This document shows positions 60,951 through 63,338 of a stretch of DNA of 64,000 nucleotides, piece by piece (the stretch's first letter is position 1; the number at the start of each line of letters is the position of its first letter). The notes below the pieces were generated by a model. It saw only the letters and a program-made list of their open reading frames with translations, did not search any database and was not told the DNA's origin. Source of the DNA: Verrucomicrobiaceae bacterium (GTDB taxonomy: Bacteria > Verrucomicrobiota > Verrucomicrobiia > Verrucomicrobiales > Verrucomicrobiaceae). Both the position numbers and the translations under genes were made by a program. The stretch spans positions 1 to 64,000 of the forward strand of contig JAEUHJ010000025.1 in NCBI GenBank assembly GCA_016795375.1, given 5' to 3'.

Positions 60951-63338
60951 ATGAAGCCCAACCTTCTGCTTTCCGTATATTTCGTGTGTTCCGTGGTCAA
61001 TGCCTTGGCCCAGGAGCCGCGCAACATCAGCGGCATCTATCCATCGCTCGCCATGTTCAACAACGAGGGCGAGTGCGGCACGGGTGCCGTCGTGCCTTGG
61101 GCGGACCGGCTGTGGGTCATCACGTATGGGCCGCATCTGCCCTTCGGTTCGAGCGACAAGCTCTACGAGATCACGCCGGAGCTGAAACAAGTCGTGCGCC
61201 CCGAAAGCGTCGGCGGCACGCCAGCGAACCGCATGATCCACGACGAGTCGCAGCAGCTTTTCATCGGGCCGTATGTCATCGACGCAGAGCGCAAAGTGCG
61301 CGTCATCCCGCCGAGCATCATGCCGGGCCGACTCACCGGCAATGCGCGGCACCTGACCGATCCCGCAGGCAAAATCTACTACGCCACGATGGAAGAAGGC
61401 CTCTACGAGGTTGATGTGAAGACGCTTGGGGCCAAAAACCTCATACGTGACGGCAATCCTCACCGAAAAGGCTTCAAGATCGAATCGCCGCTCTCCAAGC
61501 TCGACTCCCAACTCCCCGGCTACCACGGCAAAGGCCTCTACACCTCCCAAGGCCGCGTCATCTACGCGAACAACGGCGACCGTGATCCGCGTGTCAAAAC
61601 GGACCCCACCACGCCCAGCGGCGCGCTCGGCGAATGGACCGGCAGCGGCGACTGGCGGCTCGTGCGGCGGAATCAATTCACCGAGGTCACCGGCCCCGGC
61701 GGCATCCACGGCAGCGATCCGAACGCGCCCGTGTGGAGCATCGGCTGGGATGCGAAGTCGCTCATCCTCATGCTGCTCGACCGTAGCGCGGGTTTTCAAC
61801 CCGCGTCAGAGGGGAACGAGTTGAAAACTCGTTCTACATGGCAGTCCTTCCGCCTCCCCAAAGTCAGTCACAGCTACGACGGCGCACACGGTTGGAACAC
61901 CGAATGGCCGCGCATCCGCGACATCGGTGAAAAAGACCTGCTCATGACCATGCACGGCGCGTTCTGGAGCTTTCCGAAGACCTTTTCCGCATCGAACACG
62001 AACGGCATTCGCGCCCGCAGCGCCTACTTGAAGGTCATCGGCGACTTCACGCGCTGGAACGACCGCCTCGTCTTCGGCTGCGATGACTCGGCGAAGTCGG
62101 AGTTCCTCAACAAACGCAAAGTCAAAGGCGGCATCGACAGCGTCGGCCAGTCACAGAGCAATCTGTGGTTCACCACGCCCGACATGCCCGGGAAGCTCGG
62201 CCCCGCGCACGCGAGCGGCGCGGTGTGGCTGCACGAGAGCGTGAAGAAGGGCGACAAAGGCGATTTGTTTCTCGTGGCGGGTTGGAAGCACCGCAGCCTC
62301 TGGATCGTCAATCACGCCACCGGCGAATCCACACGCACAGACATCACCAGTGACGATGACTGGCTGCGGACCGAGGCCGGAGCCAACTCCAAGGACTTCA
62401 GCGCCATCATCACGCTCTCGAACGGCGACTCACGCTCCACCGAACCCGACGCCATTTTCGACGGCATCGCCCGAATCGGCGATGGAAACGCCCAAACCGG
62501 CCTTTTCCGCCCGCGCGGCGAGAACAAGCGCACGCTGAGTTTTGCGACAAAAGACGGCTACTACGAGATGGGAGCCGATCTGGCCCTCAAACGCGTCGAA
62601 GACGCCAAAGCGAAGGCCTTCGTCGAAAAAGCCGTCGCGCTGCCGAAGAACGTCATCACGCTCGATGCCGCCAGCGTGCTCGTCGTCGATGATCGCGGCC
62701 GCCGCTGGCGCTTGCCGCGTGCCTCGAAGGCCTACGATGCCGCCACGAAGATCGGCGAGCTGCGCATCTGCCGCGAAGTCGCTACCGAGCGCGACATGCT
62801 CAGCGCCTGCGGCACCTTCTTCGAGCTGCCCGCCGAAAACGCCGATGGCTTCGCGAAGATCCGCCCCATCTGCTCGCACAACTTGCGCGTCACCGACTTC
62901 GGCGGCTACCGCGGCCTCTTCATCATGAGCGGCATCAAACCGGACGCCAAAGCCAGCGACCACATCCTCCGCAGCGACGACGGCAAGGCCGCCCTTTGGG
63001 CCGGTGCCATCGACGACCTCTGGAAGCTCGGCAAACCCTGCGGCGAAGGCGGCCCATGGAAGGCCACGAAGGTCAAAGCCGCTCAAAAGAGCGATCCTTA
63101 TCTGATGTGGGCCTACGATCAGCGCACGCTCACGCTCAGCCATGATCAGAACGAGCCGGTGAACTTTCACATCGAGCTCGACCTCACCGGCACCGGCCTC
63201 TGGGTCACCCACAAACACCACGAAGTCTCCCCCGGCGAAGAAACCGCCCTCGCCTTCGACCCCGCCGTGCAGGCCCGCTGGCTGCGCCTCACGGCCGACA
63301 AAGCCTGCGCCGCGACGGCGCAGCTCAAATACGAGTAA
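60951..63338 (+). CDS. Large secreted protein of unknown function, interrupted in frame by a REP pair
   Basis: A 795-residue exported protein (signal peptide MKPNLLLSVYFVCSVVNALA). The N-terminal half has propeller-like strands (TGAVVPWADRLWVITYG, SSDKLYEITPEL, KIYYATMEEGLYEVDV) and the C-terminal end a beta-sandwich (NFHIELDLTGTGLWVTHKH). It may bind or cleave a glycan, but no known family is clear. Residues about 278-295 (RSAGFQPASEGNELKTRS) are encoded by a pair of palindromic repeats and are likely an insertion that the fold tolerates. A sulfatase gene follows after 37 bases, so they probably work together. Confidence 0.65.
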   Translation: MKPNLLLSVYFVCSVVNALAQEPRNISGIYPSLAMFNNEGECGTGAVVPWADRLWVITYGPHLPFGSSDKLYEITPELKQVVRPESVGGTPANRMIHDESQQLFIGPYVIDAERKVRVIPPSIMPGRLTGNARHLTDPAGKIYYATMEEGLYEVDVKTLGAKNLIRDGNPHRKGFKIESPLSKLDSQLPGYHGKGLYTSQGRVIYANNGDRDPRVKTDPTTPSGALGEWTGSGDWRLVRRNQFTEVTGPGGIHGSDPNAPVWSIGWDAKSLILMLLDRSAGFQPASEGNELKTRSTWQSFRLPKVSHSYDGAHGWNTEWPRIRDIGEKDLLMTMHGAFWSFPKTFSASNTNGIRARSAYLKVIGDFTRWNDRLVFGCDDSAKSEFLNKRKVKGGIDSVGQSQSNLWFTTPDMPGKLGPAHASGAVWLHESVKKGDKGDLFLVAGWKHRSLWIVNHATGESTRTDITSDDDWLRTEAGANSKDFSAIITLSNGDSRSTEPDAIFDGIARIGDGNAQTGLFRPRGENKRTLSFATKDGYYEMGADLALKRVEDAKAKAFVEKAVALPKNVITLDAASVLVVDDRGRRWRLPRASKAYDAATKIGELRICREVATERDMLSACGTFFELPAENADGFAKIRPICSHNLRVTDFGGYRGLFIMSGIKPDAKASDHILRSDDGKAALWAGAIDDLWKLGKPCGEGGPWKATKVKAAQKSDPYLMWAYDQRTLTLSHDQNEPVNFHIELDLTGTGLWVTHKHHEVSPGEETALAFDPAVQARWLRLTADKACAATAQLKYE
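61782..61837. repeat. Two inverted GTAG-footed REP-like palindromes (BIME-like) inside a CDS
   Basis: The first unit is GTAG then CGCGGGTT-TTC-AACCCGCG (hairpin arms 61787-61794 and 61798-61805). The second, in opposite orientation, is AACGAGTT-GAA-AACTCGTT (arms 61815-61822 and 61826-61833) followed by CTAC. The whole element of about 55 bases is read in frame through the gene at 60951. Its layout matches REP doublets mobilised by RAYT transposases, which recognise a GTAG foot. Confidence 0.75.

Follow-up and report, generated by a model that had tools for sequence, protein, structure and literature searches.

Three described systems come closest to the element examined here. Rickettsia palindromic elements (RPEs) are in-frame palindromic repeats in proteins (PMC2229807), and REPs with a GTAG foot have been found in open reading frames of several bacteria, of which Opitutus terrae, a verrucomicrobium, is the richest in them (PMC3733652). 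Extragenic siting of REPs is therefore usual and not absolute. The third system is the REPINs of Pseudomonas fluorescens SBW25, where the commonest REP 16-mers occur 1,067 times and 14 of these overlap genes (PMC3116915). REPs are thought to be mobilised by tyrosine transposases of the HUH class, which cleave DNA in its single-stranded form, and TnpA_REP is reported to cleave at CT/CA with GTAG as a guide (PMC8266576). An earlier note on a 64,000-nucleotide stretch of a Verrucomicrobiaceae contig, called here the window, had proposed that a REP doublet has entered a protein-coding gene. The evidence at this locus supports that, but elements entering genes have been published before (PMC2229807, PMC3733652), and intragenic, in-frame REPs are already known as a kind.

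The doublet and its host protein

Two inverted GTAG-footed hairpins had been described, and they are found at 61783-61805 and 61814-61837, 8 nt apart, forming a GTAG-tagged doublet of 55 nt (61783-61837) with the feet outward. The proposed span of 61782-61837 was nearly right, with the coding cassette now corrected to 61782-61838 (Table 1). It encodes 19 residues, 278-296, RSAGFQPASEGNELKTRST, in frame with the host protein; the frame is kept as claimed, whereas the size of about 18 residues gives way to 19. Each exact hairpin pattern occurs once in the window and not in shuffles, and a general scan of the 64 kb for foot-outward GTAG hairpin doublets returns this one only, with no pair for any of ten control tags in the same scan. 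Folded as single-stranded DNA, the region forms two stem-loops at -18.5 kcal/mol, z = -4.9 against shuffles (0/200).

Table 1. Coordinates of the host gene and of the parts of the insert in the window.
Feature	Position	Strand	Remarks
Host gene	60951..63338	+	795-aa protein; N-terminal signal-like segment; beta-propeller-like fold
Coding cassette, 57 nt (C + doublet + A)	61782..61838	+	residues 278-296; relatives have 9 nt (GGCGGCAAA, Gly-Gly-Lys)
REP hairpin 1, GTAGCGCGGGTTTTCAACCCGCG	61783..61805	+	GTAG foot at 5' end
Spacer, 8 nt, TCAGAGGG	61806..61813	+	unlike Brevifollis copy
REP hairpin 2, inverted, GAACGAGTTGAAAACTCGTTCTAC	61814..61837	-	GTAG foot (CTAC on +) at outer end

The reading-frame check finds the host gene stop-free across the doublet. 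Its product is probably exported. A Pfam and NCBIfam search with the protein matched no family, and a structure search of the PDB gave no close relative and just weak beta-propeller matches, so the idea of a close structural relative was dropped. The best AlphaFold model, run with 35 aligned sequences, has a mean pLDDT of 87.5 and a pTM of 0.89. The sole internal segment with pLDDT below 50 is residues 281-292, within the insert, and because this segment falls between strands 271-277 and 296-302, the insert, as modeled, makes the turn of a beta-hairpin larger within a beta-propeller-like fold.

The empty site in relatives

Homologues of the host gene were fetched by sequence and aligned, as had been recommended, and a segment of the 18-residue type is absent from nearly all of them; Gly-Gly-Lys, in LDGGKWQSF or something near it, stands at the insert position instead. 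Relatives at 84-93% identity read LDGGKWQSF where the window reads LDRSAGFQPASEGNELKTRSTWQSF, and the closest (L030/L111, 93% identical in the multiple alignment) has the empty Gly-Gly-Lys site. The same segment in distant homologues had been named as a sign against insertion; the more distant Brevifollis does have a similar doublet at the site, while closer relatives are empty. At the DNA level the boundaries are exact, GA[CT]-cassette-TGG, with 9 nt in relatives (GGCGGCAAA and variants) against 57 nt in the window, hence a net gain of 16 residues. These boundaries indicate that the element arrived with loss of the short native turn, and on alignment evidence the change is a replacement of a short turn rather than a clean insertion. 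The length of most doublets is not divisible by three, so that clean insertion alone would break the frame.

Distribution of the GTAG family

The window's genome is a 4.7 Mb metagenome-assembled genome (MAG), 87% complete, in 240 contigs. Searches that the earlier note had suggested turn up further copies of the repeat (17 exact family matches) and RSAGFQPA / NELKTRST-type peptides in other proteins. Allowing one mismatch gives 11 places; at 9 of these the codon usage of both flanks marks the site as genic, and the other two are a genic copy cut short at a contig end and one degenerate copy. All 8 of the complete doublets are genic and in frame, with coding-like codon usage in both flanks, the codon scorer being partly trained on genes that contain elements. 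The note had held that REPs normally lie between genes; in this genome genic siting is the rule for the GTAG family, not the exception. The same classifier calls doublets genic in Brevifollis gellanilyticus (G005; 5/5), G028 (3/3) and G103 (2/2), and two doublets elsewhere (L154, at a contig end, and L160) were uncallable by it. An order-level scan of 190 genomes shows the exact pattern in 12, and 9 of those 12 belong to the window's genus. As a REP family the repeat is low in copy number and belongs to this Prosthecobacter-like genus.

Host genes include valS, mutS, hsdM, sulfatases, a GDSL hydrolase, FAD oxidoreductases, an AcrB-type pump and a helicase, and Pfam/NCBIfam models span the insert in the MutS, ValS, AcrB-type, DEAD helicase and GDSL proteins. 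One side of the doublet is read as VERVFNSF or RTGFQPV and the other as ERVENSFY or NELKTRST, and all four combinations occur. Brevifollis, at 99% completeness, has a single gene above the ValS cut-off, and the element sits in that gene, so this ValS presumably functions with the insert. A host-derived spacer in the cytD copy was ruled out, its peptide being absent from empty orthologues. At contig ends of the window's genome (C47, C218, C220), loci L173, L180 and L181 belong to a coiled-coil-like gene family with the same doublet and spacer; at least 2 copies of that doublet lie at contig breaks, which suggests duplication after insertion. A recurring, apparently intergenic hairpin, CGAGTTGAAAACTCGCGCTCC, with a GGAG foot instead of GTAG and similar flanks in several genomes (L147, L166, L169, L172), may be a terminator-like relative of the REP.

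The genic bias has limits. Genus member G149 is genic in 3 of 10 places and has intergenic REP clusters, and G134, a genome from another bacterial family, has nothing but intergenic clusters; the clusters in both genomes reject an exclusively genic family. Tolerance alone predicts about half or fewer genic doublets by a rough calculation with assumed acceptance rates and non-independent sites, and because of that non-independence the significance of the bias is only sketched under those rates. The bias probably has mixed causes, with selection for frame and tolerant loops on one side and, on the other, intergenic copies that particular lineages lose, avoid or let decay faster; such copies may also become unrecognisable sooner.

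The same loops in other genus members

Orthologues were compared at ten insertion sites, and at most of them other genus members have a short native loop. In other species the window loop is occupied by AGTG-type AGTGATGCGGGCACTCCTGCCCGC elements (L031, L112, L058), and different palindromic elements are found at the same position in valS (L192, L193), GDSL (L225), cytJ (L211) and mutS (L244). The AGTG family also occupies the cytJ loop (L309). A scan of 623 kb of loci around homologues of the window gene found a single GTAG doublet and a single AGTG doublet, each lying precisely in the window loop, with one pair in total for the six other tags.

This second family, AGTGATGCGGGCACTCCTGCCCGC, read as the peptide SDAGTPAR, occurs in frame in many genus proteins (L265-L326), with up to 25 matches per genome, and no exact copy in the window's genome. 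It is present in 22 of 39 genus genomes, and is genic and in frame at 14-15 of 17 places in G016 but at only 3-5 of 16 in G018. In the AGTG-filled alleles L031, L058, L112 and L063, one of them from a deep clade, the insert is followed directly by TGGAAA in place of the TGGCA of most empty alleles, and this could be a transferred tract or an extended element. At the cytD loop some palindrome-less orthologues (L227-L235) have short imperfect repeats instead, for example TCCGATTCGTCCGATCAGACCGAT.

Possible mobilisation

On the gene-side flank a C or an A precedes GTAG in 25 of the 26 copies, a count that includes orthologous sites and so not all independent ones, and the base on the opposite flank is mostly C or T. 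A search for a RAYT gene, also proposed at the outset, finds three strong Y1_Tnp genes in the 87%-complete assembly, none of them beside this REP. Among 30 tyrosine-transposase loci in eight genomes, no GTAG-tagged copy of this REP lies nearby at up to three mismatches, and a cognate RAYT was not found among these loci, so mobilisation by a RAYT is something that we infer. Tyrosine-transposase genes with other GTAG hairpins nearby, for example GTAGCCCCGTCTTTCAAGACGGGG, are seen at L327, L328 and L349, which are possible REPtrons of different families.

Origin of the insert

We consider it likely that a low-copy GTAG REP doublet integrated into a turn of a probably exported protein and survives as an in-frame, tolerated loop. 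The doublet, the low-copy GTAG family, the empty site, the kept frame, the loop position in the model and the recurrent use of loops can all be read from the sequences. By this account the REPIN-like doublet would have been mobilised as single-stranded hairpin DNA by an HUH enzyme of the RAYT/TnpA_REP type and would have integrated into the beta-hairpin turn, replacing Gly-Gly-Lys. It would survive because the cassette is stop-free, the frame is kept and the surface loop is tolerant, and for the same reasons its likeliest fate is translation into a neutral loop of 19 residues. That the insert is a chance quasi-palindrome or a native loop expansion unrelated to REPs is hardly credible: a turn is a site where length variation is common, but the same 21-mers lie in unrelated genes of the genome and the genus, a backwards control pattern has no match in the window's genome, and the fold energy stands far from that of shuffles (z -4.9). 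The copies in unrelated genes and the shuffles exclude a chance palindrome.

How the integrated doublet came to this particular allele is a further matter. The loop might have been gained by homologous recombination of a filled allele from a Brevifollis-like relative rather than by fresh transposition, which we hold to be possible though on the unlikely side. The window and Brevifollis have the same kind of doublet, of equal length, at the same site, with the rest of the window gene nearest an empty allele; the two genomes also have cytD and valS insertions in common, and the Brevifollis copy reaches 92% and 88% identity near the insert, where the gene as a whole averages 78-80%. However, the 50-nt stretches beside the insert are conserved in all relatives, the informative bases there match Brevifollis in some cases and the empty allele of G011/L030 in others, and the spacer and first stem differ between window and Brevifollis. 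Wide lateral transfer of the window allele was discarded, as sliding identity gave no clear tract. The protein tree for the window loop needs at least 2 changes for the GTAG-filled alleles, which disfavors a single inherited insertion, and at least 2 for the AGTG-filled ones. Both insertion in parallel and the exchange of short alleles that were already filled fit these data, and sliding identity favors neither. A broader proposal is that such protein loops are exchangeable cassette sites, where unrelated palindrome families (GTAG, AGTG and others) have time and again taken the exact place of the same few residues, via an active process with a preference for coding DNA or one by which filled loops pass from species to species; this we find doubtful. 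Still more improbable in our judgment is that the insert is positively selected, for instance as an mRNA hairpin with a regulatory role or as a linker of use to the protein, and that this explains the genic bias. The bias does exceed the tolerance-only prediction of the rough calculation under assumed rates, and the unrelated second family is similarly genic in G016, but the host proteins are unrelated, all four arm-reading combinations are used, and copies are mostly intergenic in G149 for the GTAG family and in G018 for the second.

Comparison with known systems

A literature search for Prosthecobacter with palindromic repeats returned nothing relevant among the papers searched. Filled and empty alleles in close relatives allow the REP insertion rule, both target and lost target bases, to be read directly, and a loop that several unrelated elements have entered shows a place at which a protein can take up an insertion. 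The family repeatedly supplies core enzymes with new peptide loops, and it parallels the Rickettsia elements in bacteria that are not intracellular.

As in the RPEs, the palindromic insert is read in frame inside conserved proteins, and an RPE is reported to be tolerated in the working enzyme Gmk (PMC2229807). RPEs are 105-146 bp and belong to obligate intracellular bacteria (PMC2229807), whereas the elements here are 49-93 bp, GTAG-tagged, and from a Prosthecobacter-like genus. The REP-like elements of R. conorii are tagged CGTC (PMC3733652) and the window element GTAG, and at 55 nt it also falls outside the Rickettsia family in size. The window element resembles an RPE in how it works without being one. 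With GTAG REP doublets, or REPINs, it shares the conserved GTAG-footed short palindrome, the pairing of two inverted REPs as one unit (foot-outward pairs of 49-93 nt) and repetition in the genome, where about 10 places are low for a REP family; extragenic siting is the trait that it lacks. The inverted doublet is likewise the apparent unit of the SBW25 REPINs (PMC3116915), which are high-copy and extragenic, whereas the family here is low-copy and genic, with no RAYT found beside the element. With the GTAG REPs in open reading frames (PMC3733652) the element shares the GTAG foot, the short stem, opposed dimers and a place inside conserved genes; the likeness of the O. terrae elements to this one is of foot and layout. 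Most REPs described there are intergenic, whereas the complete low-copy doublets here are almost all genic, in loops shared with unrelated palindromes. What is new is this genic dominance in a low-copy family, together with the way in which unrelated palindromes come back to the same loops and occupy them exactly.
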